Assembly (NCBI RefSeq): GCF_000701445.1
Contig: NZ_JNIX01000010.1
Coordinates: forward strand, 62,001 to 126,000
DNA length: 64,000 nucleotides
Direction: 5' to 3'
Origin: Brevundimonas bacteroides DSM 4726
GTDB lineage: Bacteria > Pseudomonadota > Alphaproteobacteria > Caulobacterales > Caulobacteraceae
The position numbers and the translations under genes were made by a program. The notes beneath the pieces were generated by a model. The model did no database searches, had not been told where the DNA came from, and saw only the letters and a list, made by a program, of their open reading frames with translations. This document shows positions 21,864 through 46,152 of the stretch, piece after piece; the first letter of the stretch is position 1; every line of letters begins with the position of its first letter.

Positions 21864-21979
21864 ACTCTTCCTCCGGAGGCCAGCCCGCCTCCTCAGTCCC
21901 CCGACTGACGTCTTTGCTTAAGTCGCTGGTCATTAACGCGAGGTATAAGGAATATCATATCAACGTTACGGCTAAGCTT

Positions 21980-30497: not shown

Positions 30498-31706
30498 CTA
30501 TAGAATTAGCAGCGCGCGAAAATCGTTGACGTTGGTGCGGGTTGGCCCGGTGACGATCTGATCGCCCAAGGCCTCGAACAGCGTCAGGGCGTCGTTGTTC
30601 TGAAGTGTCCGCGCGAGGTCGAGCCCCAGCCGTCGCGCTCGTTCGAAACTGTCGGGTCGCAAAATGGCCCCCGCTGCGGGACCGGATCCGTCGATGCCGT
30701 CGGTATCGGCGGCTATGCCCCACAGTCCAGAACCGCCCCCCGCACACTCCATCGCGGCGGCGAGGAACTCGGTGTTGCGGCCCCCGCGCCCCGAGCCGCG
30801 CACGGTGACGGTCGTTTCGCCGCCGGAAAGGACAAGGGCTGGTCGATGGTCGCCAGGGAGCTCGAAGGCCATCCTGGCGTGGTCACGGCCGACATCGCGC
30901 GCCTCGCCCTCGACCGACGCTCCAAGGTCGATGACGTTCAGGCCCGCTTCCTCCGCCATGGCTCTGGCGACGCCGAGGGCCTGCGACGCCGTGACCACCA
31001 CATGGACCGGCCCTTCCGGGGTGGCGTCCCTCACCACGCGGGATCCCTCAGGCAACAGGTCCAGGATCCCTGGAGACAGCAGCACATCCGGAGGCGCCAA
31101 TGTCGGGCCGCTGCCGACCCGGCGCGGGTCGTCGCCGGGAACATCGGACACGACGACCGTGACGACTCGGGCCGGGGTCGCCGCGCGGGCAAGCCCCCCG
31201 CCCTTGAGGCGCGACAGGCGCACCCTGGCGGCGTTCATCTGGTCGATGGGAACCCCGACCTTCAACAGGCTCCGGTTCAATGCGATCTCGTCGTCGAGCG
31301 TGAGGCCAGACACTGGCGCGGCGAGCAGCGCCGACGCCCCGCCCGAGACCAGGGCGACCAGCAGGTCATTGGCCGCCAGAGCGTCCGCCATCGCCAGCAT
31401 GCGCTCTCCAGCGGCCAGAGACGAGGCGTCCGGCACGGGATGGGCGGCGATGAGGGACTGGAAAGTCGAAAGCGGCAGATCGTGACCCGGCGGCGTGACG
31501 ACGAGACCATCCATCTGACCCGGTTTCAGCCACCAGGGAGGCGCGTCTTCGATCGCGGACGCCATGCTGGCCGCCGCCTTGCCCGCCGCCAACACGCGAA
31601 TCCGCCCCTCGGTTCTGGGGATCAAGCCGGGGATCATGGAAAAATCGGAGGCGGCGGCGATGGCCGCTGAAAACAACGACCGCAGGAAACCTTCAGGATC
31701 GTCCAA
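30498..31706 (-). CDS. Glycerate 2-kinase (type II, MOFRL family)
   Basis: The roughly 402-residue protein has the GckA/TtuD layout: an N-terminal domain with RIRVLAAGKAAASMA and LVALVSGGASALLAAP, and a C-terminal MOFRL domain with LVLSGGETTVTVRGSGRGGRNTEF, IAADTDGIDGSGPAAGA and VTGPTRTNVNDF. It phosphorylates D-glycerate to 2-phosphoglycerate. In a uronate locus this could salvage glycerate made from aldarate breakdown or tartronate semialdehyde. A GTG at 31724 is possible, but the TTG at 31706 is preferred since GGGAGG lies 6 bases before it. It follows the TonB-receptor gene behind a hairpin. Confidence 0.9.
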   Translation of the reverse strand: MDDPEGFLRSLFSAAIAAASDFSMIPGLIPRTEGRIRVLAAGKAAASMASAIEDAPPWWLKPGQMDGLVVTPPGHDLPLSTFQSLIAAHPVPDASSLAAGERMLAMADALAANDLLVALVSGGASALLAAPVSGLTLDDEIALNRSLLKVGVPIDQMNAARVRLSRLKGGGLARAATPARVVTVVVSDVPGDDPRRVGSGPTLAPPDVLLSPGILDLLPEGSRVVRDATPEGPVHVVVTASQALGVARAMAEEAGLNVIDLGASVEGEARDVGRDHARMAFELPGDHRPALVLSGGETTVTVRGSGRGGRNTEFLAAAMECAGGGSGLWGIAADTDGIDGSGPAAGAILRPDSFERARRLGLDLARTLQNNDALTLFEALGDQIVTGPTRTNVNDFRALLIL

Positions 31707-31741
31707 CCGCCGCCTCCCAGTCACTCCGGCTCAGGAGAGGT

Positions 31742-31777: not shown

Positions 31778-34405
31778 TCAGAAGGTCGCGCGCACCCCCA
31801 CCTGATAGGTGGAGCCGAAATCCTGCACGCGCTCGAACAGGCTCTGACGACCGCCGACATAATAGCGCGTATCCTTCTCGCCCGTCAGGTTCACGCCGTC
31901 GACATAGAGCTGGACTTGTTCGGTGACGTTCCAGCGCAGATTGATGTCGATCTGTGTGAAGGGGGCTCGGTAGCGGTCCTCGATCACGCTGTCGCCGATG
32001 CCCTGGAGCACTTCGCCGCGGTGGTTCCCGGCCACGCGCATGGAGAAGATGTCGTTCTCCCAGCCCAGCGACAGGTTGGCCGTGATATCGGCCTGGCCGG
32101 GGAAGGCGAAGGTCTCGCCGGGGCGAACGCTGGTCTCGGCCTCGCTATCGGCCAGCGTCAGGTTGCCCTCGACGAACAGTCCCGAGAGAACGCCCGGAAG
32201 CTGCACGAAGGACTGGGAATAGGAAAACTCGACCCCGGTGACGGTCGCGTCACCGCCATTGATGACGGTCTCGATGCCCGCAAAGTTGGTCGAGGTGCCG
32301 GTCGGCAGCACGATTGGCGTCTGGGTGATGTCGCGGGTGGTCAGTTCCAGAAAGAAGTCGCTGATCTCCTTGTGGAACACCGCGACCTGGAACACGGCCT
32401 GACTGGACGGGTAGAAGGCCACAGAGGCGTCGAACTGGTCGGCGATCAGGGCGTCCAGGAACGGATTGCCCGCCTCCAGCCGCCGGGTGTTGGCCGCATT
32501 GGTCGGATCGAAGCGGATGGCCTGGCTGTTGCGGGCGTCCTCAAAATCCGGCCGCTTGAGACCGCGGCCATAGGATGCACGCACCACCATGTCGTCACGC
32601 GGCTCCCACCGGATCAGGGCGCTGGGCAGCCAGTCGGTGTAGTCCTTCTCGTAGGTCCCGAGATTGACCGCCGTCAGCGGTTGGCCTGCGGCGTTCAGGC
32701 CGTTGTCGTCGCTCTCGAAGAAGAAGCCCTGGCTCGAGAACTCGGTCTGCTCAACGCGGACGCCGCCAATCAGGGTCAGGCTGGGCGACAGGCTCCAGTT
32801 GCCCATGACGTAGGCGGCCGTCACATCCTCGCCGAGACGATAGTCGGAGGCGACCGTATTGTCCTGACGCTGAAAACGCGGGTTCAGCAGCAGGGCGTCA
32901 CGGGCACGCACGGCCAGGTCGCGCAGGGTGTTGAGTTCGACGAACGGGCCGAAGTCGTTCCTGAAGTTGGAGTCCGGCGTGAACGTCGGCAGGGTGGCGT
33001 AGCTGCCTGTCACACCCGCCGTGCGCGGATCACCGTTGAACTCTGACTTGTCGGCCTCCTTGTCGCGGGAGCGGAACTTGGCCCCGAACTGCAGATAGCC
33101 GTCTTCGCCGAAGGCCGCGAATGGCGCACGGATGTTGAACCGGCCCGAGGTGATCTCGTCGGTGCGTTCTTCCTCGATGAAGAGCAGGTTGACGAAGGTG
33201 TAGGCGGCCGGGTTCGTCGGATCGGGGCGCGTGCCCGACTCCCGTTCGATGTCCACGGTCAGGTCTTCGCGGCCGTAGGTGGCGACCGCCCGGATGTCGT
33301 CGATCTCGAAACGGGGACGCAGGCCGTCTTCCTGGGACCAGCGTGAGCGGGAGAGGTCGATCTGATAGTCGAGCTCCCAGTCGTTCTCGAAACGGTGCTC
33401 ACCCCCACCGGAAATCGAGAACAGCCGGTCCTCGGTCGGCTGGAAGAAGACCTGATAGCGGTTGCGAACATCATTGAAGCTGCCGGAGCTGTCGGTGATC
33501 GTCAGCACCTCGTTGCCCGTCGACCGTTCCGTCTGCCAGAGTTGCTGCACACGGGTGTCGTCGTCGTTCAGCTGGGTGAACTGACCGCGCAGATACAGCT
33601 CCATGCCGTCACGCGGCCGGTATTCCAGATTGAAGGTGCCGCCGAAGCGTTCGCGCTCGCCGATCTCGAAACGCTGGTTCAGCTCGTCAGGGTAGAGGAA
33701 ATCCGTGCCGCCGCGATTGATCAGACGAAGGCCCTGCTCGTTGCGCAGGTCCGTGCCGTTGATGAAACGGTTGGAATAATTGCCCGCAATGGCCAGACCC
33801 AGGTCGCCGTCCATCAGGCGCCGCGCAACGCTGCCGGCGACCTCTGGGCCCCACTCGTCGGCGTACTCCTGATAGTTGCCCTCGGCTCGGAAGGTGTAGA
33901 AGTCGCCGGGCTGATCGAAGGCGGACTGGCTCTGCAACTCGACCGCGCCGCCGATGGTGTCGCCATCCATATCGGGCGTGTAGGTCTTGGACACCACGAT
34001 CCGGCCCAGCAGGTCGGACGGGATCACATCCAGCGCCACCGTGCTGGAGCCGGCTTCGGAGGTGCCGACGCGCACGCCGTTGACCGTCACCTGGGTGAAG
34101 GACGATGGGAGGCCCCGGATCGAAACCGTGCGGCCCTCGCCCTCGTTGCGCTCGATGTTGACGCCCGGCAGGCGCTGCAGGGCTTCGGCGGTGTTCTGGT
34201 CGCCGAACTGTCCGACCGAGTCGGCCGAGACCACATTGGTCAGATTGTCGGCGCGCCGTTCGTCGGCGCGAGCCGAGGCGATGGCCCCGCGCTGTCCGGT
34301 GACGATGATGTCCTCGACTTGCTGGGCAGCCTCCTGGGCCCATGCTCCTCCGGCCAAGCCAGACACGGCGGTGATGATTGCGAGTGCTGAGACCCCTCGG
34401 CGCAT
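31778..34405 (-). CDS. TonB-dependent receptor, probable oligosaccharide uptake
   Basis: The 875-residue receptor has a signal peptide (about 1-24, GAWAQE), a TonB box-like VEDIIVTGQRG, a plug (LTNVVSADSVGQFGDQNTAEALQRLPGVNIERNEGEGRTVSIRGL) and a 22-strand-type barrel ending in VGVRATF. The plug of this form (DNTAEALQRLPGV, NEGEGR) is typical of the carbohydrate-importing TonB receptors of Caulobacterales and Xanthomonadales. There is no STN domain, so control is probably transcriptional through the operators at 34486-34557. The start at 34403-34405 follows GGGAGG at a normal distance. It diverges from the exported enolase-superfamily genes and should supply them with substrate. Confidence 0.93.
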   Translation of the reverse strand: MRRGVSALAIITAVSGLAGGAWAQEAAQQVEDIIVTGQRGAIASARADERRADNLTNVVSADSVGQFGDQNTAEALQRLPGVNIERNEGEGRTVSIRGLPSSFTQVTVNGVRVGTSEAGSSTVALDVIPSDLLGRIVVSKTYTPDMDGDTIGGAVELQSQSAFDQPGDFYTFRAEGNYQEYADEWGPEVAGSVARRLMDGDLGLAIAGNYSNRFINGTDLRNEQGLRLINRGGTDFLYPDELNQRFEIGERERFGGTFNLEYRPRDGMELYLRGQFTQLNDDDTRVQQLWQTERSTGNEVLTITDSSGSFNDVRNRYQVFFQPTEDRLFSISGGGEHRFENDWELDYQIDLSRSRWSQEDGLRPRFEIDDIRAVATYGREDLTVDIERESGTRPDPTNPAAYTFVNLLFIEEERTDEITSGRFNIRAPFAAFGEDGYLQFGAKFRSRDKEADKSEFNGDPRTAGVTGSYATLPTFTPDSNFRNDFGPFVELNTLRDLAVRARDALLLNPRFQRQDNTVASDYRLGEDVTAAYVMGNWSLSPSLTLIGGVRVEQTEFSSQGFFFESDDNGLNAAGQPLTAVNLGTYEKDYTDWLPSALIRWEPRDDMVVRASYGRGLKRPDFEDARNSQAIRFDPTNAANTRRLEAGNPFLDALIADQFDASVAFYPSSQAVFQVAVFHKEISDFFLELTTRDITQTPIVLPTGTSTNFAGIETVINGGDATVTGVEFSYSQSFVQLPGVLSGLFVEGNLTLADSEAETSVRPGETFAFPGQADITANLSLGWENDIFSMRVAGNHRGEVLQGIGDSVIEDRYRAPFTQIDINLRWNVTEQVQLYVDGVNLTGEKDTRYYVGGRQSLFERVQDFGSTYQVGVRATF

Positions 34406-34485
34406 GGCCGTCCTCCCATTGACGTTGACGCCGCTTCTGGATCGGCTTGACAACACCGTTACATGCGGACTGTCCGGATGTCAAA

Positions 34486-34557
34486 ATCGTCCTGACCAAT
34501 TATCCCCGTACGCCTGACCGGCCATAGCGGGTTGCGCAGATTGGTCAGACCGGTTTA
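34486..34557. promoter_or_regulatory. Two GntR-type operator-like sites in the divergent receptor/enolase promoter region
   Basis: On the minus strand 34503-34486 reads ATAATTGGTCAGGACGAT; on the plus strand 34538-34557 reads AGATTGGTCAGACCGGTTTA. Both share ATTGGTCAG with a partly palindromic TGGTC-N-GACC core, as bound by FadR-subfamily GntR regulators of uronate genes. A further GGCCGGTCAGGCG-like partial site lies at 34511-34525 on the minus strand. The same word occurs at 42967-42986 beside the gntR gene, which makes that regulator the best candidate. Confidence 0.55.
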
Positions 34558-34579
34558 GGGTTTCTGAGGGAGTATGCTG

Positions 34580-35842
34580 ATGATCACCAGCCGTCGAAAC
34601 GCTCTGATGGCCGGCGCGCTGGGCCTGTTCGGCGCGGCCGGACCGGCCGCCGCGCGCAGCGTTCACCCGCCCCGCCCTGACGCCGAGGGGCTCCTCCGTT
34701 TTCCCGCCGATCCCCGGCCGCCGATCGATCTCGGCGAAGTCGCGGCTGAACCGATCACCCTTCGCGCCCTTGAGTTGTGGCGGACGCCGCAGGAGGGCAC
34801 CCTTCTGGTCCGCGCGGTCTCGGCCGACGGGGTCGAGGGCGTCGTCCGCGCCTCGACCAAGGCGGAGGAGACGCTCGATTTTTTTCGCCTTTTCGTCATG
34901 CCCAAGTTCATCGGCGAGGACATGCGCGACCTCTATCGCATTCTCGAGCGAGGCTATCGGGACGACTATGAGTATGCCTCGGTGCCGTGGTGGAGCGCCA
35001 TGGGTCAGGCGGAGGTCGCCGTTTGGGACCTGATCGGCAAGACGGTCGGCAAGCCGTGCCACGCCCTTATGGGCCCCAAGCTCAGGAACGAGATCGCGGT
35101 CTATCTGTCGTCCAACCAACGCGGAACCCGGCCCGAGGAAGAGGTCGATCACCTGCGCCGCCGCGTTGAAGAGACCGGGTGTCAGGCCATCAAGATCAAG
35201 GTCGGCCGCCGCATGGGGCGCAACACCGACATGTACGAGGGCCGGTCCGAGGCGATGGTCCGGGCCGCGCGCGAGGCGTTCGGCGACGGCATGACGATCT
35301 ATGCGGACGCCAACGGTGCCTACGACGCCCCGACGGCGCTGGAGATGTGCCGGATGCTACAGAGCTATGGCGTGGCCATGTTCGAGGAGCCCTGCCCCTT
35401 CGAGGCGTTCGAGATGGTCAAGCAGGTCACCGAACGCACCGACCTGCTGATCGCGGGCGGTGAGAACGACTGCGCCTTCGAGAAGTGGGCCTGGTACTGT
35501 GACAACCGGGCCTATGACGTGCTGCAGCCCGACCCGATGTACAACGGCGGCATGATGCGCTGCGTGGCCGTGCAGCAGATGAGCGAGGCGGCGGGCCTGC
35601 TCTACAATCCGCATTTCCCCCGGAACAACGCCGACACCGCGCCCCTGCTACACCTCTGCGCGGTCGCGCCCAACCTGTACGGCTTTCAGGAATATCGGTC
35701 GCGCCCCGACACGCTCGACTTCGCCCATTCGCCCCAGATGGCACCGCGCGGAGGGATGCTGCCGGTGTCGGACGCGCCGGGTTTCGGCATCGATTACGAC
35801 CCGTCGATCTGGTCCACCGCCACAAGGATCCTGCCACAATGA
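34580..35842 (+). CDS. Tat-exported enolase-superfamily (mandelate-racemase-like) enzyme 1
   Basis: About 420 residues. The N-terminus MITSRRNALMAGALGLFGAA is a twin-arginine signal ending in PAAARS, so the folded enzyme should be exported. The mature part has the enolase-superfamily capping domain and a barrel with the full mandelate-racemase set: KIKVG (Lys-x-Lys), YADANGAYD (metal Asp), FEEPCPF (metal Glu), GGEND (metal Glu), VLQPDPMYNGGM (Asp of the dyad) and NPHFP (His). Activity as a dehydratase, epimerase or cycloisomerase of a sugar acid is plausible. Two ATGs are possible, 34574 and 34580; GAGGGAG fits 34580 better. It overlaps the next, paralogous gene by 4 bases. Exported members of this superfamily are unusual. 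Confidence 0.88.
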   Translation: MITSRRNALMAGALGLFGAAGPAAARSVHPPRPDAEGLLRFPADPRPPIDLGEVAAEPITLRALELWRTPQEGTLLVRAVSADGVEGVVRASTKAEETLDFFRLFVMPKFIGEDMRDLYRILERGYRDDYEYASVPWWSAMGQAEVAVWDLIGKTVGKPCHALMGPKLRNEIAVYLSSNQRGTRPEEEVDHLRRRVEETGCQAIKIKVGRRMGRNTDMYEGRSEAMVRAAREAFGDGMTIYADANGAYDAPTALEMCRMLQSYGVAMFEEPCPFEAFEMVKQVTERTDLLIAGGENDCAFEKWAWYCDNRAYDVLQPDPMYNGGMMRCVAVQQMSEAAGLLYNPHFPRNNADTAPLLHLCAVAPNLYGFQEYRSRPDTLDFAHSPQMAPRGGMLPVSDAPGFGIDYDPSIWSTATRILPQ

Positions 35843-37074
35843 GACTGGATCGACGCGCGATGATGGCCGGGCTGGGAGCCACGGCGCTCGCCGGATCGGC
35901 CGGTGCCCAGGTCGCCGTCCGCCGACCGGACGGCCTGCTGGCCTTCCCCGACTACCCTGCCGATCAGGTCGACTTCCGTCGCTGGCTGGACCGACCGGTC
36001 GTCCTGCGGTCGGCCGAAATGCTGAAGGTCGACGGCCGCCACGAGTTCGTGCGTGTCGTGTCCGAAGACGGCGTCGAGGGCGTGGTCAAGGCCAACAGCC
36101 GCATGGCCGAGGTCTCCAGCCTGTTCCACCTGGTGGTCAAGCCGCGCCTGCTGGGCCAGGACATGCGCGACATCGAGCGGCTGATCCGCGAACTCTACAC
36201 CCGCGAATACAAGTTCGCCTCCCTGCCCTTCTGGACCGCCGTCGGCCATCTGGAACTTGCGATCTGGGACATGATGGGAAAGACGGCGGGCGTGCGCTGC
36301 GTCGACTTCATGGGGCCAGTGCAGAGGACGGAGATCCCGATCTACATATCTTCGCTCCGTCGAAACACCACGCCCGAAGAAGAGGTCGCCTGGCTGGCCG
36401 AAGAGGTCGAGACCACCGGTGCACGTGGCGTCAAGATCAAGGTCGGCGGTCGCATGAGCCGCAACGAAGACGCCAGCCCAGGTCGATCGGAGGGCGTGGT
36501 GCGAGCCGTGCGACAGGCCTTCGGCGACGACTTCACCATCTATGCCGACGCCAACGGCAGCTATGACGCCCCGGCCGCGATCGAACTTTGCCGAATGCTG
36601 GAAGACCAAGGCGTGGCCATACTGGAAGAGCCCTGCCCCTTCGAGGACGTGGAGATGACGCGCCAAGTCGTCGAGCGCACCACCATCCCCATCGCCGGTG
36701 GCGAGCAGGACAACTCGATGGAACGCTGGCGCTGGCTGATCGAGAACCAGGCGCTAGACGTGCTTCAGCCAGACTTCATGTACAACGGCGGTATGGTGCG
36801 GACGCTGGAGGTGCAGCGTATGGCGGCCGCCGCCGGGATCGGCGTCGCCCCTCACTATCCGCGCAGCGGTTCGGAGACGGTCGAACTGCTGCACTTCGCC
36901 GCCTATGCGCCGAACCTCCATGGGCTCCAGGAATATCGCGGCGAGGGCCGCGACCTGGATTTCGCCCATGCGCCCCGGCTGGTGCCCCGCAACGGCGTCA
37001 TCCACCTGCCCGAGGGTCAGGGTTTCGGCGTGACCTTCGACCCTGACCTGTGGCCTTCCGCGGAGCGAATGTGA
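35839..37074 (+). CDS. Tat-exported enolase-superfamily (mandelate-racemase-like) enzyme 2
   Basis: 411 residues, paralogous to the preceding protein over its whole length. The N-terminus MRLDRRAMMAGLGATALAGS is again a twin-arginine signal, cleaved near GSAGAQ. Active-site motifs are conserved: KIKVGGRM, YADANGSYD, LEEPCPF, GGEQD, VLQPDFMYNGGM and APHYPRSG, so metal ligands and the Lys and His bases are present. Differences lie mostly in the loop before the barrel (DKYKFASLPFW-type region) and near RRNTTPEEE, suggesting related but different substrates or the two faces of one reaction. Its stop overlaps the GH28 start by one base (TGATG), linking the pair to polygalacturonide breakdown. Confidence 0.88.
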   Translation: MRLDRRAMMAGLGATALAGSAGAQVAVRRPDGLLAFPDYPADQVDFRRWLDRPVVLRSAEMLKVDGRHEFVRVVSEDGVEGVVKANSRMAEVSSLFHLVVKPRLLGQDMRDIERLIRELYTREYKFASLPFWTAVGHLELAIWDMMGKTAGVRCVDFMGPVQRTEIPIYISSLRRNTTPEEEVAWLAEEVETTGARGVKIKVGGRMSRNEDASPGRSEGVVRAVRQAFGDDFTIYADANGSYDAPAAIELCRMLEDQGVAILEEPCPFEDVEMTRQVVERTTIPIAGGEQDNSMERWRWLIENQALDVLQPDFMYNGGMVRTLEVQRMAAAAGIGVAPHYPRSGSETVELLHFAAYAPNLHGLQEYRGEGRDLDFAHAPRLVPRNGVIHLPEGQGFGVTFDPDLWPSAERM

Positions 37075-38429
37075 TGCATCTCACCCTGTTGTCCGGCGGC
37101 GTCTGCGCCGTCGCCCTGATGCTGGCCGCCGGATCGGTCGAGGCCCAGGAGGCGCGGCCCGCGATCTGCGACGTGACGGCCTATGGCGCGGTCGCGGACG
37201 ACGAGACGCTCGACGACGCGGGCATCGCCGCCGCCATCGCCGCCTGCGCGCCGTCCGGCGGCACGGTGATCCTGCCGCGAGGCGTATTCCTGACTGGCGG
37301 CGTCCAGCTGGCGTCCAACATCACCTTCCACTTGAATGGCGGGGCGGTGTTGAAGGGGTCGAGCGACTTGTCCGACTACACCCCCTTGCTGGGCCTGGGC
37401 GGAGCGGAGCTGGAGCGTACGGAGGGCGACACCAACCGAGGCGTGCTCTCGGCCGTGGGCGTGGAAAACGTCACACTGTCCGGCACTGGCGTGATCGATG
37501 GGACCGGCGCGGCCTTCTGGAGCGATCTGGTCAATCGGCCCGACTTCGCCGTCGGCTTCGCGGACTGCCGCAATGTGCGGATGCGCGATGTCACCGTGAT
37601 CGATCCGGCCAAGTACAACATCCGTTTCAACAACTGCGACAACGTCGTCGTGGACGGTGTGACGGTGAACGCGCCGATGCTGTCGCCCAACTCCGACGGC
37701 ATCCAGATCCGCGACTCGGCCGATGTGCGGATCTCGAACTGCCAGATCTCGACCGGCGACGACGCCATCGTGCTGAAGGCGCATGAGCGAAACGTGGAGC
37801 GGGTGACCGTCACCAACTGTCGCATCACGTCGGACGACGCGGCGTTCAAGTTCGGCACGGGGTCGGAGACCGTCACACGCGATGTGACCGTGTCCAACGT
37901 GGTGGTGACCGGTAGTCGCTACGGCGTCGCCCTGTTCATGCAGGACGGCGGAACTTATGAGAATGCCCGCTTCACCGACATGATCATCGAGACCGGCGGG
38001 CGACATCGACGCGAGTATCCGATCTATGTCGACATCGACACGCGGTTCGGCGACGGGGCGTTCGGGACGATTCACAACATCACCTTCGACGGCCTGGACA
38101 TCCGCACCCGCGGCAACATCCTGATCGGCGGGCAGGAGGCCGCGCCGGTCACGGGCGTCACCCTGTCGAACATCCGCATGACAGTGGCGGACGCGGTCGA
38201 TCTGGCGGCCACCGCCGGGAAGCCGAGGGGCAACCGGCTGCAGGCGCAGCGGACGGGCGCGGCGGACTTTTCAGGCGAAGTCGGTCACATTGTGCTGGGG
38301 AACACGGTCGGCGCGGCGGTGCGAGACGTCACCATCATGGGCGCTACGGAGGCGGATCGGCGGCCTGTGCTGGTCGCGCGTGGCAGCACAGGCCTGACCG
38401 CCGACGGGGATTTCAGCGCGCCTCGCTGA
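37074..38429 (+). CDS. Secreted GH28 polygalacturonase-like protein
   Basis: The 451-residue protein has a signal peptide (about 1-25, GSVEAQE) and a right-handed beta-helix. GH28 hallmarks are present: FGAVADDETLDD-like start, GGTVILPRGVFLTGG, LSPNSDGIQI (the N-x-D motif) and STGDDAIVLKA (the DD pair). The third motif, usually GHG-S-I-G, is replaced by SDDAAFKFGTGSE, and the RIK motif by a different sequence near EYPIYVD. The catalytic Asps are thus kept while the substrate-binding His and Lys motifs are altered, as in divergent exo-acting GH28 enzymes. It should act on galacturonan or rhamnogalacturonan fragments in the periplasm or outside. The ATG overlaps the upstream stop. Confidence 0.83.
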   Translation: MHLTLLSGGVCAVALMLAAGSVEAQEARPAICDVTAYGAVADDETLDDAGIAAAIAACAPSGGTVILPRGVFLTGGVQLASNITFHLNGGAVLKGSSDLSDYTPLLGLGGAELERTEGDTNRGVLSAVGVENVTLSGTGVIDGTGAAFWSDLVNRPDFAVGFADCRNVRMRDVTVIDPAKYNIRFNNCDNVVVDGVTVNAPMLSPNSDGIQIRDSADVRISNCQISTGDDAIVLKAHERNVERVTVTNCRITSDDAAFKFGTGSETVTRDVTVSNVVVTGSRYGVALFMQDGGTYENARFTDMIIETGGRHRREYPIYVDIDTRFGDGAFGTIHNITFDGLDIRTRGNILIGGQEAAPVTGVTLSNIRMTVADAVDLAATAGKPRGNRLQAQRTGAADFSGEVGHIVLGNTVGAAVRDVTIMGATEADRRPVLVARGSTGLTADGDFSAPR

Positions 38430-38496: not shown

Positions 38497-39894
38497 CTAT
38501 GTCTGTTCGAACCCTGGCTCCAGCCGCTGTTCCGCCGCCGCGCTCACCCGAGCGTGCTCGGCCTGGTCCAGACGATAGCCCCACATGACCAAGGCCGAGA
38601 CCGCGACACCGATCAGAGGCACCACCGTCATGATGGCCTTGATGCCGTCGGCGGTGGCGGGCGTTACCTCGGTGCCGTCAACATAGCCGATGGCGAACAG
38701 CAGCCAGCCGAACAGAAAGCCGTTGACTCCCAGCGCCAACTGCTTGGCGAAGCTGGCCAGGCCAAACACCTTGGCGTCGTGGCGCTGGCCGGTAACATAG
38801 GCGTTGTACTCGACCGTGTCGGGCAGCATGGCCCAGAACAGGACCTGATAGCCGACGTTGGCGGCCGAGACGGCGGTCAGCAGGCCGGCCGCGATCACCG
38901 GATCGCGTGACGGGATCAGCCAGAAGGCGGCGTATGCGGCCGCGCTCCACAGGTTGGCGAACAGCCAGGCGTCGCGCTTGGACCGCCTGCGCGCCACCCA
39001 GGCCCAAAAGGGGCTGAAGGCCAGCTGCGCGACCAGGGCCAGCGGCACCAGCACGGCCTTCAGATCGGGCCTCTCCAGCGTGTGATTGACGTAATAGGTC
39101 AGGGCCTTGTTCGTCATGGTGAAAGCGAGCGACGAGACGATGATGCAGGCGAAGACCCGCATCAGCGGCCCGTTCAGCACCAGCATCCGTCCCACGGTTC
39201 GCGCGTCGTCGGCCGCGCCTGACAGGGAAAAGCCTTTAGGGTTGGACTCGACCTCGCGCGGCGGTTCGCGGGTCTCGGCGAAGCACAGCCAGAAGATCGG
39301 CAGGGACAACAGCCCCACCGTGCCTGCGGCGGCGACATAGGCGAAGGGATTGCCCTCTCCGCCCGCGCGGGCCACCAGCGTCGGCATCAGATAGGTCACC
39401 GCCGCCCCGCCCGAGAAGGCGAAGAACATGCGCCAGCCCGCCAGGCTAGCACGCTCGTCGGCGTCGCCCGAGATTCGCGCCGAAAGCGACGAATAGGGGA
39501 TCGACACCACCGAATAGGCGGTGCGCATCAGCACCTGGCTGAGCAGGGCATAGAGGAACAGACCCGACTGTTCGGCGAACAGACCGCCGGATGGGACGAG
39601 GAAGCAGAAGGCGAAGGCGACGGCCACCGCCGGGCTGGCGAACACCAGATAGGGCCGATAGCTCCCCCATCGCGTGCGTGTCCGGTCGGCGATGGCCCCG
39701 ATGACGGAATCGGCGAACCCGTCCCACAGGCTGGCGACCAGGAAGACGGTGCCGGCCAGCCGCGCGTCCAGACCCAGCACGTCCGTGTAGAACGGCATGA
39801 GCAGAAGGTTCAGCGTCTGCCAGTACAGATTGAAGCCGAAGTCGCCGACAGCCCAGCCGAGCTTACGGCGAAGTGGCAGGGGCGCGACGGTCAC
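38497..39894 (-). CDS. GPH-family (MelB-like) glycoside/hexuronide:cation symporter
   Basis: The 465-residue inner-membrane protein has twelve predicted helices and the glycoside-pentoside-hexuronide family features: KLGWAVGDFGFNLYWQTLNLLLMPFYTDVLGL at the start with the conserved Asp, ADRTRTRWGSYRPYLVF (cytoplasmic loop 2-3 motif) and FWAMLPDTVEYNAYVTGQRHDAKVFGLASF. Members carry melibiose, xylosides or glucuronides with Na+ or H+. It overlaps the GH2 glucuronidase gene by 4 bases (39891-39894), so a glucuronide is the likely substrate, as for E. coli uidB next to uidA. Confidence 0.9.
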   Translation of the reverse strand: MTVAPLPLRRKLGWAVGDFGFNLYWQTLNLLLMPFYTDVLGLDARLAGTVFLVASLWDGFADSVIGAIADRTRTRWGSYRPYLVFASPAVAVAFAFCFLVPSGGLFAEQSGLFLYALLSQVLMRTAYSVVSIPYSSLSARISGDADERASLAGWRMFFAFSGGAAVTYLMPTLVARAGGEGNPFAYVAAAGTVGLLSLPIFWLCFAETREPPREVESNPKGFSLSGAADDARTVGRMLVLNGPLMRVFACIIVSSLAFTMTNKALTYYVNHTLERPDLKAVLVPLALVAQLAFSPFWAWVARRRSKRDAWLFANLWSAAAYAAFWLIPSRDPVIAAGLLTAVSAANVGYQVLFWAMLPDTVEYNAYVTGQRHDAKVFGLASFAKQLALGVNGFLFGWLLFAIGYVDGTEVTPATADGIKAIMTVVPLIGVAVSALVMWGYRLDQAEHARVSAAAEQRLEPGFEQT

Positions 39895-41630
39895 GGCCGG
39901 CCCTTCCAGAGATCGCGCAGGACGAAGGCCGCGCGTTTGGGCTGACGGTCGCGGGTAAAGACGCCCTTCAGGTTCAACACGACGCGGCGGAAATGTTGGG
40001 CCGTTCGGAAGTCGGCGAAGTTCCAGACATGGCCGCCGATGCAGGCGGGATGGCGCTCCAGCTCGGCCCAGAAGGCGGTGATCAGGTCAGCCTGGTATTC
40101 CTCGGTGAACAGCTGGGGCGAGGTCGAATGCTGGCCGGCCAGCGCGTCGGCACCGAACTCGGCCACAAACACCGGCTTGCCGTGCCGGGTGACGGCGTCA
40201 AGGTCGGCGCGCAGCAGTTCGACGGCCCGCTCGATCTGGCCCGGAGCCTGGTACCAGCCGAAGTAGCGGTTGATCGAGACGACGTCGGCCTGGTCGAAGG
40301 CCGGGTCGTCCAGCCCGGCATAGCCGACATTGGCGTGGGTGAGGGGCCGGGTCGGGTCGAGCGCGCGGGCGTCTTCGAACAGGACCTTCCAGTAGGGGCC
40401 GGACCGGCTACGGTACTCCGGCTCGTTGAGATAGCCCGGCTCATTGGCGAGCGACCAGGCGATAACGCTGGGGCGGTGGCCGTCCCGATCGATCAAAGCC
40501 CGGACCGCTGCCTGATGCTGGACCAGCGTGGCGTCCGTTACCCGGCGGAAGTCGAGGTTTACCGAGAAGACCTCGTCGATGACCAGCACGCCCCGCGCGT
40601 CGGCGAAATCGAGGAACGCCTCGCTGTAGGGATAGTGGGAGGTGCGGACCGAATTCGCCCCAATCCAGTCGAGCAGGCCGAAGTCCTTGACCAGTTGAGG
40701 CAGGTCGAGCCCGCGCCCGCGGATAGGCCCATCCTCGTGTTTGCCAAAGCCCTTCAGGGTGACGGGTTGGCCGTTCAGAAGCAGCTCATGGCCACACACC
40801 TCGACGTCGCGGAAGCCGGTGCGAAGCTCGACCCGATCGGCGACGACGCCCAGCGCATCCAGCCGCTCGACGGCGACGTCGTAGAGGGCCGGGTCGGCGG
40901 GCGACCAGGGGCGGACGTCGGGGACACGCAGGATCACCGGCTCGCCCGCGAAGCCCTCGGCCTCCTGTCCCGCGACGGAGATGCGGATGTGCGATCCGGC
41001 CGGGGCCTCGACGGTGGCGGTCAGCCTGCCGTCGGCCGAGGCCCGCAGCTTGACCGCCTCAATGCCGCCGACCGGCGTCGCCGTCAGCCAGACCGGACGA
41101 TTCAGCCCGCCATAGGGAAAGAAGTCGAACCGCACGGCCGGGCGGTACTCGTCACGCAGCCGCCCCTCGGCGACATACTGCTCCATGCCGACGCCGGGGG
41201 TCGGTCCTTCCAGCGCCAGCCGGTTGTCGACGCGGGCGACGATCCGGACCGTCCGGCAGGCGACCAGCCGTTCGCTCTCGACCTCGAACGGCAGGAAGGC
41301 GGGACCGCTTTCGCCCGCGAACTCGCCGTCGACGAACACACGCGCGGCGAAATCAGCGCTGTCGCACCTCAGCCGGATGCGCCGCCCCTCGAACGACGGC
41401 GGCACGAAGACGTCGGTCTGGAGCCAGGCCGCGCCCAGGTAGTCCATGAACCCCGCCTCGGCGAGCTGCTCATTCCAGGAGCCCGGCACGGCGATCGGAT
41501 GGGTGTCGGCGGGGATCGATCCGGCGCACCAACCCTCGGCCTCGCCGACATCGTCCGGATCGAACCGGATGCGCCAGATGCCGCTCAGGTCGATGAAATC
41601 GCGAAAGGAGTTCCGTTGCGGCCGGATCAC
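39891..41630 (-). CDS. GH2 beta-glucuronidase (cytoplasmic)
   Basis: The 579-residue protein has the GH2 order: jelly-roll sugar-binding domain (about 15-170), immunoglobulin-like domain (about 175-265) and TIM barrel (about 270-575). The acid/base Glu is in IAWSLANEPG and the nucleophile Glu in VFVAEFGAD. The C-terminal LNLKGVFTRDRQPK contains the Asn-x-Lys pair which, in E. coli UidA (NKKG), recognises the glucuronate carboxylate, so this is a beta-glucuronidase and not a galactosidase. There is no signal peptide, so it works on imported glucuronides together with the symporter encoded downstream. The start is a GTG 1 base after the manD stop. Confidence 0.9.
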   Translation of the reverse strand: MIRPQRNSFRDFIDLSGIWRIRFDPDDVGEAEGWCAGSIPADTHPIAVPGSWNEQLAEAGFMDYLGAAWLQTDVFVPPSFEGRRIRLRCDSADFAARVFVDGEFAGESGPAFLPFEVESERLVACRTVRIVARVDNRLALEGPTPGVGMEQYVAEGRLRDEYRPAVRFDFFPYGGLNRPVWLTATPVGGIEAVKLRASADGRLTATVEAPAGSHIRISVAGQEAEGFAGEPVILRVPDVRPWSPADPALYDVAVERLDALGVVADRVELRTGFRDVEVCGHELLLNGQPVTLKGFGKHEDGPIRGRGLDLPQLVKDFGLLDWIGANSVRTSHYPYSEAFLDFADARGVLVIDEVFSVNLDFRRVTDATLVQHQAAVRALIDRDGHRPSVIAWSLANEPGYLNEPEYRSRSGPYWKVLFEDARALDPTRPLTHANVGYAGLDDPAFDQADVVSINRYFGWYQAPGQIERAVELLRADLDAVTRHGKPVFVAEFGADALAGQHSTSPQLFTEEYQADLITAFWAELERHPACIGGHVWNFADFRTAQHFRRVVLNLKGVFTRDRQPKRAAFVLRDLWKGRP

Positions 41631-41631
41631 C

Positions 41632-42912
41632 CTACCAGTTCCACATGGAGCCGTCGGTCAGGCGCGCAATGGGCAACTGGCGCGGCTCGTAAGGGTATTT
41701 GGCCGCCAGATCCTCGTCGATATCGACGCCGTGGCCGGGCCGGTCGCCGGGGATCAGGAAGCCGGCCTCGAAGCGATAGTCGTGCGGGAAGACCGCTTCG
41801 GTCGCTTCAGTGTGGCGCATATATTCCTGAATGCCGAAGTTGGGCACCCAGGCGTCGAAATGCAGCGCCGTGCCCATGGTAACCGGAGACAGGTCGGTCG
41901 CTCCATGACACCCCGTCCGCACGCCCCAGACGCCCGCGAAGTCCGCGATCCGGCGCAGATGGGTCAGGCCGCCCGCCCCGACAATGGTGGCGCGGATGTA
42001 GTCGATCAGCTGCTCCTGGATCAGGTCCTTGCAGTCCCAGATCGTGTTGAATACCTCACCGACAGCCAGAGGTGTCGTCGTGTGCTGCCGGATCAGGCGG
42101 AACGCCTCCTGGTTCTCGGCCGGAGTGGCGTCCTCCAGCCAGAACAGGTCGTAGGGCTCTAGCGACTTGCCCAGCCGCGCGGCCTCCTGCGGCGTCATCC
42201 GGTGATGGCCGTCGTGGAGCAGGCGCGGCTCGGGCCCGTAAGAGTGGCGCAGCCGCTCGAACAGCTTAGGCACATGGGTCAGGTAGCGCCGCGTGTCCCA
42301 CACCGTCTCGGTCGGCAGGGAGGCGTCGGCCGGCTCGTAGTGCATCTCGCCGCGTCCAACACCATAAGCGTTGGTCAGGCCGGGGACCCCGGCCTGGGCG
42401 CGGATAGCCTGATAACCCAGGTCGATGTAGCGGCCGACGGCATCCACCGTTTCCTCGATGTCGGCCCCGTTGGCGTGGCCATAGACCATGACCCGGTCGC
42501 GCGACTTGCCGCCCAACAATTCGTGCAGCGGCGCGCCCAGGGCCTTGCCCTTGATGTCCCACAGGGCGACGTCTACGGCCGCGATGGCCCGCATCGTCAC
42601 CGGCCCCCGCCGCCAGTAGGAGCCCCGATACAATAGCTGCCAGGTATCCTCGATCCGGCGCGCATCCCGCCCGATCAGCAGAGGACAGACATGCTCGTTC
42701 AGATAGGCGACGACCGCCAACTCGCGCCCGTTCAGGGTGGCGTCGCCGATGCCATAGACCCCCTGATCCGTCTCGATTTTCAGGGTAACGAAGTTGCGGC
42801 CAGGCGAGGTCACAAGGACCCGGGCCGCGGTGATGACCAGGGGCGATGCAACACCGACCCGACCGGACCTGTCGGCCCCCAGGTTGCGGGCGTCTCCATC
42901 GGCGGCGGGCAT
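41632..42912 (-). CDS. manD: D-mannonate dehydratase (ManD, enolase superfamily)
   Basis: The 426-residue enzyme dehydrates D-mannonate to 2-keto-3-deoxygluconate in glucuronate breakdown. Family marks are VMVYGHANG (Tyr), [10 protein letters not shown] (Arg), [11 protein letters not shown] (metal Asp and the His), [11 protein letters not shown] (metal Glu), [12 protein letters not shown] (metal Glu), [15 protein letters not shown] and the closing SMWNW. The ATG at 42910-42912 is preferred because CAGGA lies 8 bases before it; a TTG ten codons earlier is in the same frame. It heads a minus-strand operon with the beta-glucuronidase and symporter genes and diverges from gntR, from which the operator at 42967-42986 separates it. 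In a few ManD-like proteins the activity is low or on gluconate. Confidence 0.92.
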
Positions 42913-42966
42913 GCGAAAATCCTGTGCTAGAACTTCGGACAACCTAGGTGGCTGATTTTGGATTGT

Positions 42967-42986
42967 CCAGATTGGTCAGGCCAGAT
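42967..42986. promoter_or_regulatory. GntR-type operator-like site between manD and gntR
   Basis: CCAGATTGGTCAGGCCAGAT shares AGATTGGTCAG with the site at 34538-34557 and ATTGGTCAGG with the inverted site at 34486-34503. It forms an imperfect dyad (TGGTC / GGCCA). It lies 12 bases before the gntR start and 54 bases before manD, where repressor binding would cover both promoters. Confidence 0.55.
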
Positions 42987-42998
42987 AGAAGGGTGGTC

Positions 42999-43757
42999 AT
43001 GTCCGCCAAGTCAGAGAGCAAAAGGCTTTACGAACAGGTCGCCGAAGCCCTGGCGGCGCGCATCGCGGCCGGCGAGCCCAAGGTCGGCGAGCGCCTGCCC
43101 TCCGAACGCGATCTGGCACAGACCTTCGGCGTGTCGCGTCCCACGGTGCGCGAGGCCGTGATCGCGCTGGAACTCGACGGCCTGGTCGAGGTCAAGATGG
43201 GCTCCGGCGTCTACGTCCGCGCCAAACGACCAACCGGCGGCAAGGCCGGAGAGACCGACATCGGGCCGTTTGAACTGCTGGAAGCGCGGCGCGCCGTCGA
43301 GGGCGAGGCCTGCGCGATGGCGGCGCTTCGCATGACCTCCGAGACCATCGCCCAGCTACGCGCCCTGGTCGACGAGATGGAGGATGAGAACGCCCGCGAC
43401 GTGGTCATGAGCGAAGACGCCGACCGACGCTTTCACATGGTCATCGTCGAGGCGACTCAGAACAGCGCCATGATCCAGGCCGTGCGTGGCCTGTGGGACG
43501 CGCGCAGCCGCTCGCCCCAGCACCAGTTCCTGTCGCAGAAGGTCCGCGCAGCCGGGGTGAAACCGCGCATCAATGAGCACGCCGCCATCGTCGAGGCGCT
43601 GAACATGCGCGATCCGGCCGCCGCCCGCGCCGCCATGCGCGACCACCTGACCCGGGTGATCGAGTCCCTGCTGGAGGCCACCGAGACCGAGGCGATGGAA
43701 GAGGCGCGCGCCCGCATCGCCGAACAGCGCCAGCGCTACGCGGCGACGACCCACTGA
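42999..43757 (+). CDS. GntR-family regulator, FadR subfamily (uronate regulator)
   Basis: The 252-residue protein has an N-terminal winged helix (about 5-75, VAEALAARIAAGEPKVGERLPSERDLAQTFGVSRPTVREAVIALELDGLVEVKMGSGVYV, the standard GntR pattern) and a C-terminal FCD helical ligand-binding domain (about 85-235) with the metal-type His residues in DADRRFHMVIVEATQN and NEHAAIVEA. It resembles ExuR/UxuR/KdgR-type repressors, which are released by uronates or KDG. It is the first gene of the nine-gene uronate operon and overlaps uxaC by one base (TGATG). It probably represses its own operon, the divergent manD operon and the genes at 34 kb. Confidence 0.92.
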   Translation: MSAKSESKRLYEQVAEALAARIAAGEPKVGERLPSERDLAQTFGVSRPTVREAVIALELDGLVEVKMGSGVYVRAKRPTGGKAGETDIGPFELLEARRAVEGEACAMAALRMTSETIAQLRALVDEMEDENARDVVMSEDADRRFHMVIVEATQNSAMIQAVRGLWDARSRSPQHQFLSQKVRAAGVKPRINEHAAIVEALNMRDPAAARAAMRDHLTRVIESLLEATETEAMEEARARIAEQRQRYAATTH

Positions 43758-45172
43758 TGCCTCAGCCGCTTACCCTGCACCCCGACCGACTGTTCCCGGC
43801 CGATCCCGATACCCGCGCGGTGGCGCGTCGCCTCTACGCCGAGATCAAGCACCTGCCGATCGTCAGTCCGCACGGCCACACCGATCCCTCCTGGTTCGCG
43901 CTGAACGAGCCGTGGAAGAACCCCGCCGAGCTGCTGATCACGCCCGACCATTACGTCTTTCGGATGCTCTACAGTCAGGGCGTGCCGCTGGAAGATCTGG
44001 GGGTCCCCCGCGCCGACGGCGGGCCGGTCGAGACCGATCCGCGCGCGATCTGGCGCCGCTTCGCCGAGCGGTACCACCTGTTCCGGGGCACGCCGTCGCG
44101 CATCTGGCACGACTGGGTCCATGCCGAGGTCTTCGGCCTGGGTGTGCGACTATCGGCCGAGACGGCGGACCACTATTACGACGTCATCGACGCGGCTCTG
44201 AAGACCGAGGCCTTCCGGCCGCGCGCCCTGTTCGAACACTACGGCATAGAGGTCATCGCCACGACCGAGGGGCCGCTGGACGACCTCGGGCATCACCGTG
44301 CGATCCGCGACAGCGGCTGGACGGGCAAGGTCGTCACCGCCTACCGCCCGGACCCGGTGATGGACCCGGACTTCGAGGGCTTCCATGACAACCTCGTTCG
44401 CTTCGGCGCCCTGACCGGCGAGGACGTCGGCAGCTGGCAGGGCTATCTGGCCGCGCACCGCAAGCGTCGCGCCTTCTTCGCCGCGCACGGCGCGACCTCG
44501 ACCGACCACGGCCATCCGACCGCCTTCACCGCCGACCTGCCGCAAGCCGAGGCGGCCGCCCTGTACGAGCGCGTCGCCACCAGCCCCGTCTCGGCCGCCG
44601 ACGCCGAGCTGTTCCGGGGCCAGATGCTGACCGAAATGGCGCGGATGAGCCTGGACGACGGGCTGGTCATGCAGATCCACCCGGGCAGCTTCCGCAATCA
44701 CAACGGCACGGTGTTCGCCCGCTTCGGGCGGGACAAGGGTGCCGATATTCCGACCCGCACCGACTACGTGTCGGCCCTGAAGCCGTTGCTGGACGCCGTG
44801 GGGTCAGAGCCCGGCCTGACCATCATCCTCTTCACGCTGGACGAGACGTCCTACAGCCGCGAACTGGCCCCGCTGGCGGGCCACTATCCGGCGCTCAGGC
44901 TCGGCCCGCCCTGGTGGTTCCACGACGCGCCCGAGGGCATGCGGCGGTTCCGGGAGCAAGCGACGGAGACGGCGGGCTTCTACAACACCGTCGGCTTCAA
45001 CGACGACACCCGCGCCTTCCTGTCGATCCCGGCACGTCACGACGTCGCCCGGCGCATGGACGCGGGATTTCTGGCCAGGCTGGTCGTCGAACATCGCCTT
45101 GAGGAAGACGAAGCGCATGAGGTCGCCCGCGCCCTGACCTACGACCTGGTGAAGGCGGCCTACCGACTGTGA
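43757..45172 (+). CDS. uxaC: Uronate isomerase (UxaC)
   Basis: The 471-residue enzyme interconverts D-glucuronate with D-fructuronate and D-galacturonate with D-tagaturonate. It has the amidohydrolase-fold start SPHGHTDPSWF (metal His-x-His), IWHDWVHAEVFGL, IATTEGPLDDLGHH, MQIHPGSFRNHN, TLDETSYSRELAPLAGHYPALRLGPPWWFHDAPEG and the final NTVGFNDDTRAFLSIPARHDVARR. Length is normal for the family. It is coupled to gntR and, by a 4-base overlap, to the TRAP transporter gene. Both uronate branches seem served, since uxuB/manD and uxaA are all present. Confidence 0.95.
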   Translation: MPQPLTLHPDRLFPADPDTRAVARRLYAEIKHLPIVSPHGHTDPSWFALNEPWKNPAELLITPDHYVFRMLYSQGVPLEDLGVPRADGGPVETDPRAIWRRFAERYHLFRGTPSRIWHDWVHAEVFGLGVRLSAETADHYYDVIDAALKTEAFRPRALFEHYGIEVIATTEGPLDDLGHHRAIRDSGWTGKVVTAYRPDPVMDPDFEGFHDNLVRFGALTGEDVGSWQGYLAAHRKRRAFFAAHGATSTDHGHPTAFTADLPQAEAAALYERVATSPVSAADAELFRGQMLTEMARMSLDDGLVMQIHPGSFRNHNGTVFARFGRDKGADIPTRTDYVSALKPLLDAVGSEPGLTIILFTLDETSYSRELAPLAGHYPALRLGPPWWFHDAPEGMRRFREQATETAGFYNTVGFNDDTRAFLSIPARHDVARRMDAGFLARLVVEHRLEEDEAHEVARALTYDLVKAAYRL

Positions 45173-46152
45173 CCGCCACCCGCCGCGCCCTGATCGCTGC
45201 CGCCCTGTCCGTCCCCGCGGTCGGGTGTGTGCAGGAGATCGGAGAGCGGCCTCTGCGCGTCGCGGACACCCATCCGGTGGGCTATCCGACCGTCGCGGCG
45301 GTCGATCACTTCGGGCGTTTGATCTCTGAGCGCACCGACGGGCGGCTGCGGCTACGCAACTACGCCGGGGGCCAGCTGGGCGAGGAAAAGGACACGCTGG
45401 AGATCACCGTCTTCGGCGGGCTGGACATCAATCGGGTCAATCTGGCGCCGCTTAATCCGATCGAACCCATGACGCTCGTGCCGTCCCTGCCTTTCCTGTT
45501 CCAGTCGACGGATCACATGCGCCGGTCGCTGGACGGAGCCCCGGGCCGGACGATCCTCGGAGCGCTGGAGCGCCACGGTCTGATCGGCCTCGCCTTCTAC
45601 GATTCCGGCGAGCGCAGCTTCTACAACACCCGCGGCCCAATCCGGACGCCGGCGGACATGCGGGGCCTCAAGCTGAGGGTCCAGACCTCGGACCTCTATG
45701 TGGCCCTGGTCCAGGCGCTGGGGGCCAGCCCCATCCCCATGTCCTATGGCGAGGTGTTCCAGGGGCTGGTTCAGGGCGTCGTGGACGGCGCCGAGAACAA
45801 CTGGCCCTCCTTTCAGGACAGCCGCCATTTCGAGGTCGCCCGCTACTACAGCCTGACGCGGCACGTCATGGCACCCGAGGTTCTGGTCGCGTCGGGGCGG
45901 ACCTGGGCCAAACTGACCTCGATCGATCGCGACATCATTCGCGCCGCCGCGACCGAGAGCGTGCCCTTCATGCGCGACCTGTGGGAGACGCGAGAGCAGA
46001 CAGCACGACAGGTCGTGGTCGAGGCGGGCGTCCAGATTGTCGACGACCTGGACCGCTCGGCCTTCGAGGCGGCGATGCGGCCGGTCTGGGACCGCTTCGT
46101 TACCTCCGACACCCAGCGCACTCTGGTCGAGCAGATCCAGGGCATGGCATGA
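45169..46152 (+). CDS. TRAP transporter substrate-binding protein (DctP family)
   Basis: The 327-residue protein has an N-terminal signal with RR and a lipobox-like SVPAVGC, so it is probably a lipoprotein or Tat-exported receptor. The mature DctP domain shows RVADTHPVGYPTVAAVDHFGRLI, the Arg that binds the substrate carboxylate in MRGLKLRVQ, and VDGAENNWPSF. TRAP receptors of this group bind sugar acids such as glucuronate or galacturonate, which fits the operon. The start is a GTG overlapping the uxaC stop (GTGA). A product specificity of glucuronate versus galacturonate cannot be read from the sequence. Confidence 0.92.
   Translation: MTATRRALIAAALSVPAVGCVQEIGERPLRVADTHPVGYPTVAAVDHFGRLISERTDGRLRLRNYAGGQLGEEKDTLEITVFGGLDINRVNLAPLNPIEPMTLVPSLPFLFQSTDHMRRSLDGAPGRTILGALERHGLIGLAFYDSGERSFYNTRGPIRTPADMRGLKLRVQTSDLYVALVQALGASPIPMSYGEVFQGLVQGVVDGAENNWPSFQDSRHFEVARYYSLTRHVMAPEVLVASGRTWAKLTSIDRDIIRAAATESVPFMRDLWETREQTARQVVVEAGVQIVDDLDRSAFEAAMRPVWDRFVTSDTQRTLVEQIQGMA

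Follow-up and report, generated by a model that had tools for sequence, protein, structure and literature searches.

Enzymes of the enolase superfamily use invariant residues and a metal to abstract a proton beside a carboxylate. The superfamily serves as a textbook case for the assignment of enzyme function, and those of its members that act on acid sugars are regarded as cytoplasmic. Among them are the cytoplasmic ManD, GalD, and L-talarate/galactarate dehydratase families, which have the fold of the mandelate racemase (MR) subgroup. Uronate dehydratases of unrelated families, which feed the glycoside hydrolase (GH) families GH105 or GH88, have also been published (PMC8511951, PMC12269599). 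Here, we analyze a 64,000-nucleotide stretch of the Brevundimonas bacteroides DSM 4726 genome (contig NZ_JNIX01000010.1, positions 62,001 to 126,000; henceforth the window), in which two tandem genes, E1 and E2, encode MR-subgroup enzymes that begin with signals for twin-arginine translocation (Tat). They share the fold and the acid-sugar context of the dehydratase families above, and a true ManD is encoded in the same locus. Both enzymes are very probably exported by Tat, and their substrates are likely to be uronate-containing glycans or the products of these; the export tags, together with an apparent co-control with uronate genes, make it probable that they perform an undescribed step outside the inner membrane. 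A multi-phylum, mostly Tat-tagged group of this kind, often accompanied by exported glycosidases, would shift enolase-superfamily chemistry into the periplasm and add a step to the breakdown of uronic-acid glycans.

Two tandem Tat-signal enzymes and their relatives

E1 (34580..35842, forward strand, 420 residues) starts at an ATG seven bases 3′ of GAGGGAG, an alternative ATG at 34574 giving a protein two residues longer. E2 (35839..37074, forward strand, 411 residues) begins within the E1 stop in an ATGA overlap, and a TGATG overlap joins the end of E2 to a GH28-like gene whose ATG is at 37074. Both proteins pass the Pfam cut-offs of the two MR domains, MR_MLE_C (164.7 bits in E1, 178.1 bits in E2) and MR_MLE_N (23.7 and 27.4 bits), and share K199, K201, D237, N239, E263/E264, E289, D312, H339, and E365 (E2 numbering). 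Three acidic metal ligands, the KxK motif, and the His-Asp dyad, roles that we take to apply to these residues, are thereby complete in each enzyme. The sequence-only reading had described two full-length MR-type genes with intact ligands and bases, coupled to each other and to a GH28 gene, and the coordinates, domains, motifs, and overlaps all bear it out. Across 135 sequences, nine of the ten columns for catalytic residues or ligands do not vary, and the tenth (E263) is kept in 134. Between E1-type (n = 48) and E2-type (n = 43) sequences, 19 positions are fixed differently while the catalytic residues are identical; some of these positions flank catalytic residues in sequence (241 beside D237/N239, 313 beside D312, and 337 and 340 around H339), and further ones lie in the N-terminal domain (84–92), so that the differences fit one putative chemistry with two pockets.

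None of the curated dehydratase equivalogs of NCBIfam (GalD, ManD, TalGalacDh, RhamD, AraD, glucarate) is passed by E1 or E2. The best E2 scores are 124.3 bits (cut-off 500), 123.1 bits (cut-off 311), and 118.5 bits (cut-off 750), and those of E1 are 116.7 bits (cut-off 750) and 115.7 bits (cut-off 311), all far below the curated thresholds, which run from 311 to 829 for the dehydratase models listed. Membership in these equivalogs was therefore rejected, and the affiliation with a known cytoplasmic dehydratase family that would have spoken against a periplasmic role was not found among the curated models.

The N-termini of E1 and E2, MITSRRNALMAGALGLFGAAGPAAARS and MRLDRRAMMAGLGATALAGSAGAQ, each contain an arginine pair (RR), a hydrophobic stretch, and an AxA end by script and by eye, in agreement with the twin-arginine signals first read from the sequence, and TatC is encoded in the same genome. 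Signal calls come from a simple heuristic script (RR plus hydrophobic stretch), not SignalP, and gene starts in metagenome-assembled genomes (MAGs) are uncertain. Two protein searches, each scoring 8000 candidates, yielded 254 and 909 proteins past E 1e-30; the best 120 of each gave 150 proteins, and the count was restricted to the 133 of at least 395 residues. RR with a hydrophobic stretch occurs in 118 of these 133, RK or KR in one, and neither in 14. In 13 of the 14, the chosen start seems, on our own reading, to lie inside or past the signal, and the last (P0120) has RRR and fails the hydrophobicity rule. The signal-less majority that had been named as a threat to the idea of export is thus not seen among near-full-length relatives. 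Similarly, the family rows from fetched loci (n = 96) divide into 65 with RR, 8 with RK or KR, and 23 with none, and the same rule, scored leniently on starts and with false open reading frames (ORFs) included, is satisfied by 97 of 958 other genes of those loci. Among Pseudomonadota, Bacteroidota, Planctomycetota, Acidobacteriota, and Verrucomicrobiota, many rows retain RR with a hydrophobic stretch; all eight Chloroflexota rows belong to the 23 with none.

A quick tree of 102 rows, built with N-termini removed, grouped 82 rows including E1 and E2 (Shimodaira–Hasegawa-like approximate likelihood ratio test, SH-aLRT, 100) and left the nearest signal-less row, G033, outside. The RR label changes 16 times, against a shuffled mean of 30.6. 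The idea that Tat-signal members form a clade of their own therefore holds in part: the label is clustered on the tree, but with 16 changes and signal-less Chloroflexota a single clean origin is not supported, and the signal appears to have arisen or disappeared repeatedly, or to be partly misread. E1 and E2 fall into separate supported groups within one alphaproteobacterial group of nine rows and are paralogues. That Tat members always occur in pairs, as was also supposed, is rejected: at E 1e-60, 17 genomes, hand-picked mostly for GH28-type neighbors and counted with KxR-type relatives left out, hold one family member in 11 cases, two in five, and three in one.

The loci set (80 kept of 161 matches) spans about ten phyla. 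A search at E 1e-40 found matches in 9 of the 149 genomes of the taxonomic family to which the window belongs, with the E1/E2 level reached in the genome of the window (G000) alone (682 bits) and the next match, G033, at 284 bits; at class level, 6 of 385 genomes match at E 1e-90, none but G000 (682 bits) scoring above 312. The 20 other genomes of the genus that were listed gave no match. A close relative, the Brevundimonas MAG locus L006, has an identical gene arrangement.

Variants of the family were also observed. A second enolase with KxR for KxK is present in L020, L023, L037, L057, L061, L064, L066, L070, L080, and L085, mostly Bacteroidota, and most KxR copies have an RK, KR, or RR signal-like start. 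The signal-less Chloroflexota loci L021, L031, L033, and L047 share a cluster with MFS transporter and xylose-isomerase-like genes, three of the four also containing FAD oxidoreductase genes. The family member of L071, a contig titled as a Bordetella parapertussis MAG and possibly mislabeled, has a long branch in the tree.

Uronate locus and operator-like sites

The uronate setting proposed from the sequence alone stands, with calls of unequal strength. ManD (41632..42942, reverse strand; NF043051, 715.1 bits, cut-off 550), whose true start lies within the listed ORF, and the glucuronate isomerase UxaC (43757..45172, forward strand; 570.6 bits, cut-off 387) exceed their NCBIfam cut-offs. Three further genes match below theirs: a UxuB-like member of the fructuronate reductase family (47917..49392, forward strand; 393.2 bits, cut-off 603), a UxaA/GarD-like member of the altronate/galactarate dehydratase family (49389..50879, forward strand; TIGR03248, 347.4 bits, cut-off 730.85), and an ExuR-like GntR/FCD regulator (42948..43757, forward strand; 157.8 bits with the ExuR model, cut-off 396), which passes the Pfam cut-offs for FCD and GntR and probably starts downstream of the listed GTG. 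Transport is represented by a TonB-dependent receptor of the Xanthomonas/Caulobacter type (31778..34456, reverse strand; TIGR01782, 565.8 bits, cut-off 310), divergent from E1 and with a true start probably within the listed ORF; by a GPH-family symporter (38497..39894, reverse strand; TIGR00792, 299.8 bits, cut-off 231.35); and by a TRAP transporter (45169..47920, forward strand) with DctP and DctM above their cut-offs (NF037995, 228.1 bits; TIGR00786, 427.1 bits) and a DctQ-like middle component seen as an open frame only.

What ties E1 and E2 to these genes is a set of putative operators, for which the evidence is position and conservation. The palindrome TTGGTCAGACC was first spotted by eye between the receptor and E1, where two operator-like sites of the TTGGTCNGACCAA type lie (34487..34553); another lies between ManD and the GntR gene (42972..42984). 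Allowing up to three mismatches, TTGGTCNGACCAA was tested in 13 hand-set promoter zones of enolase and ManD/UxaC genes from the window and six loci. A site was found in 12 of the 13 zones, and in eight of nine when neither the window nor the closely related L006 is counted; shuffled palindromes reached a mean of 0.68 zones and a maximum of 3, with none of 294 trials reaching 12. Taken singly, both L010 zones (p = 0.19 and 0.33) and the L012 ManD zone (p = 0.22) are no better than random windows, and the other ten have p values of 0.006 to 0.03. Single sites mean little, because the looser pattern TTGGTCNGACC with up to two mismatches matches 93 times across the window against 66.8 expected. 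As a set, the operator-like zones tie the receptor, E1, and the GH28-like gene to ManD, the GntR gene, and UxaC, so the presumed link between E1/E2 and the uronate genes gains support, and the two enzymes seem to be controlled together with uronate use.

Several neighbors could act on glycans, and the GH28-like, GH2, and GH88-like ones also begin in a signal-like manner. The exported GH28-like β-helix protein (37074..38429, forward strand; Pfam GH28, 93.4 bits) is the sole GH28 match found in G000. Of the motifs that we take to mark GH28 (NxD, DD, GHG, RIK), it keeps NxD and DD; because GHG and RIK are lost, the name polygalacturonase was rejected and should not be used. Enolase-linked GH28-like proteins come in two types, and by alignment NxD and DD are present in 19 of 19 and GHG or RIK in none. 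By hand tally, 21 of 29 over-cut-off GH28 matches in the 17 hand-picked genomes have an enolase within 10 kb, and GH28-like genes beside enolases occur in several phyla. Two β-glucuronidase-like GH2 proteins are encoded as well, a signal-less one (39891..41630, reverse strand; PRK10150, 473.3 bits, below the cut-off of 544; best Protein Data Bank (PDB) match 370.2 bits) and a Tat-signal one (52132..53982, forward strand). Both have two glutamate motifs and an N-x-K motif (at 553 and 591, respectively), whose meaning here is our assumption. Between the genes of the UxaA/GarD-like protein and the Tat-signal GH2 lies that of an exported protein with weak GH88/GH127-type similarity (50876..52135, forward strand), joined to the preceding stop by a GTGA overlap; it and the Tat-signal GH2 gene each overlap their predecessor. 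The listed ORFs in 50363–53982 are wrong as they stand, longer false ORFs having masked both genes.

Elsewhere, locus genes were called by script and clustered, with loci shortened by contig ends scored as misses. The 81 neighborhoods with a family member include a GH28-like gene in 16, GH2 in 18, a TonB receptor in 11, and UxaC in 8; for the nine alphaproteobacterial neighborhoods, the counts are 9, 7, 6, and 6. An enolase of the KxK or KxR type directly adjoins the GH28-like gene in 12 of the 81, and the ends overlap in nine (one convergent). ADP-ribosylglycohydrolase-type genes, typed by Pfam on the L037 copy and several with a Tat-like start, lie near enolases in L020, L037, L057, L061, L064, and L085. 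In L039 (4190–6940), L044, and L050, a GH2-enolase-GH2 arrangement adjoins Gfo/Idh/MocA-type and 3-keto-disaccharide hydrolase-type genes, the Gfo/Idh/MocA-type gene of L039 having a Tat-like start.

The window also encodes a DUF4147/MOFRL glycerate kinase-like protein (30498..31724, reverse strand), below NCBIfam cut-offs and found in L006, L012, and L098 too. Downstream of the uronate locus is an autotransporter with TIG and immunoglobulin-like domains (55327–58797), and a large hybrid histidine kinase with C-terminal similarity to cyclic-di-GMP phosphodiesterases lies at 21914–25339.

Candidate reactions in the periplasm

We tentatively favor an elimination at a uronyl end, to which we would give somewhat less than an even chance. 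E1 and E2 would fold in the cytoplasm and leave by Tat, within a hexuronate-responsive glycan-uptake system in which the TonB receptor would bring uronic-acid oligosaccharides into the periplasm and the GH28-like protein and the Tat-signal GH2 would trim them. The metal site of E1 or E2 would hold the uronyl carboxylate while the KxK lysine or the His-Asp dyad takes the proton beside it, at C5 of the ring. Since the β leaving group then stands at C4, elimination would amount to dehydratase or lyase chemistry, the enolate expelling water or, in a lyase-like 4,5-elimination, a sugar. The product would be opened before GPH or TRAP import by further enzymes of the periplasm, of which the GH88-like protein may be one. 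A reaction ahead of import, as the sequence-only reading had suggested, is possible. Directly visible in the sequence are the fold family, the complete set of catalytic residues, the signals, the gene overlaps, and the operator-like sites, from which actual export, the substrate, and the elimination step are inferred. A stronger form of the proposal, that the enzymes are a new class of enolase-fold uronide lyase or oligosaccharide dehydratase that acts at C4 of a uronyl residue through a metal-bound carboxylate and a lysine base, with the GH88-like family as private downstream hydrolase, we regard as unlikely.

Elimination is favored by the exported glycosidases, by the GH88-like protein, and by the published dehydratases of other families (PMC8511951, PMC12269599). 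A search at E 1e-10 gave 389 relatives of the GH88-like protein, and source annotations assign some of them to glycoside hydrolase family 88 or call them rhamnogalacturonyl hydrolase. The protein is 49% identical to the product of a G150 gene that also sits beside UxaA and a Tat-signal GH2. Relatives occur in 7 of the 17 genomes, in every case within 16 kb of the enolase on a shared contig; the L097 relative passes Pfam GH88 (37.5 bits, cut-off 26.6), and hhalign against seven GH88 sequences gave 92.6% at low identity. No PDB sequence matches it below E 0.1, and its GH127 score is 23.2 bits with a cut-off of 24.9. Other results weigh against an elimination followed by a GH88-type opening. The window's own protein misses the GH88 cut-off (21.1 versus 26.6 bits), the L096 relative passes GH47 instead (26.6 versus 22.9 bits), and the residue that aligns to the GH88 Asp motif, D154, is replaced by Asn in 12 of 120 sequences. 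PF07470 (GH88/GH105) has no match in G000 at E 0.001; it exceeds its cut-off in 8 of the 17 genomes, and of the five with strong matches only G156 has one on the enolase's contig, the other four having theirs elsewhere. KduI, the usual next enzyme, is likewise without a match in G000 and was found in 5 of the 17. The canonical unsaturated-uronide route is weakened by the empty PF07470 and KduI searches of G000. Finally, two of the three plasmid-borne relatives examined (30–34% identity) have genes for a GMC oxidoreductase and/or an aldehyde dehydrogenase nearby, contexts that suggest small-molecule acids.

Action on small acids in the periplasm, and not on oligosaccharide ends, is a rival that we consider rather unlikely. 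A periplasmic dehydrogenase would oxidize free uronate to an aldarolactone or aldonate, the enolases would dehydrate or cycloisomerize it, and TRAP or dicarboxylate import would follow. Besides the plasmid contexts, the window's TRAP transporter would suit this route, as would the source names of many homologues (D-galactarolactone cycloisomerase or similar). In L007, genes near an E2-type enolase encode GSDH, whose start is signal-like, an NHL propeller, and an SDF symporter, and L054 retains the last two; in three Spirosoma loci, the enolase is followed by a propeller gene (MRJP/SGL in the L051 copy), and molybdopterin aldehyde oxidoreductase-type genes occur in L030, L036, and, by clustering, L040. 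However, KdgD, needed after aldarates, exceeds its cut-off of 373.95 bits in none of the 17 genomes (114 bits at best in G000; the nearest miss, G159, has 372.9 bits, about 1 bit short), which weakens the aldarate route. GSDH is encoded in all 17, yet within 10 kb of an enolase in G150 only, and was dropped as a partner. In the window, no oxidoreductase gene stands beside E1 and E2, and the catabolic genes take unoxidized uronates.

Proton abstraction at C5 without elimination would be epimerization, and E1 and E2 could instead be periplasmic uronyl C5-epimerases that, for instance, interconvert L-iduronyl and D-glucuronyl ends and thereby make them cleavable for the two GH2 enzymes. In mandelate racemase, the KxK lysine and the His-Asp dyad lie on opposite faces, and both acid/base partners for such a 1,1-proton transfer are invariant here; the two GH2 proteins with N-x-K, one Tat-signal and one signal-less, would also fit, and neither KduI nor GH88 is required. 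Against this, dehydratases are common among the MR-subgroup members that have both bases, and the GH28-like partner is left unexplained, so we judge epimerization distinctly improbable. Least probable of all, and very unlikely in our estimate, is that the N-terminal extensions give no export and that E1 and E2 are ordinary cytoplasmic acid-sugar dehydratases with unassigned specificity. The Chloroflexota rows and G033 indicate that the enolase fold itself can work in the cytoplasm, but the retention of RR signals across five phyla, the presence of TatC, and the signal-like starts of the neighboring proteins argue for export. Enolase-superfamily chemistry in the periplasm would also provide the GH28-like and GH88-like proteins, both undescribed partner families, with a testable role.

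Likeness to described enzymes

The nearest solved relatives by sequence are PDB entries 3tcs, 3u4f, 3t9p, and 3t8q, racemase or mandelate racemase family proteins. Entry 3tcs matches E1 with 195.9 bits and E2 with 205.5 bits and has a similar domain layout, and the match begins past the signal region. A literature search on the four codes returned unrelated papers alone, with no function stated for the entries. Further away, PDB 4ggb/4hpn, which we take to be D-galactarolactone cycloisomerase, shares the MR subgroup with E1 and E2 and the source name of many homologues, but 4ggb scores only 62.7 bits with E1 and 83.4 bits with E2, versus about 200 for 3tcs. In an open-access literature search covering titles and abstract openings, no exported enolase-superfamily enzyme appeared among the matches listed.

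The closest described reactions belong to other families. The ulvan oligosaccharide dehydratase P29_PDnc converts saturated uronyl ends into 4,5-unsaturated ends for GH105, a route like the one proposed for E1 and E2; its relatives are predicted to fall with the PL37 family, and the main text of that report does not contain the word enolase (PMC8511951). Along the same lines, the GH154 glucuronate dehydratase BcGDH dehydrates a uronyl end ahead of GH88, an idea shared with the present proposal, whereas its proposed mechanism is tyrosine-based, unlike that of E1 and E2, and enolase is not mentioned in the accessible text (PMC12269599). If the stronger, less likely form of the proposal were right, the enolase-fold class would be a third unrelated solution to the step taken by P29_PDnc and GH154.

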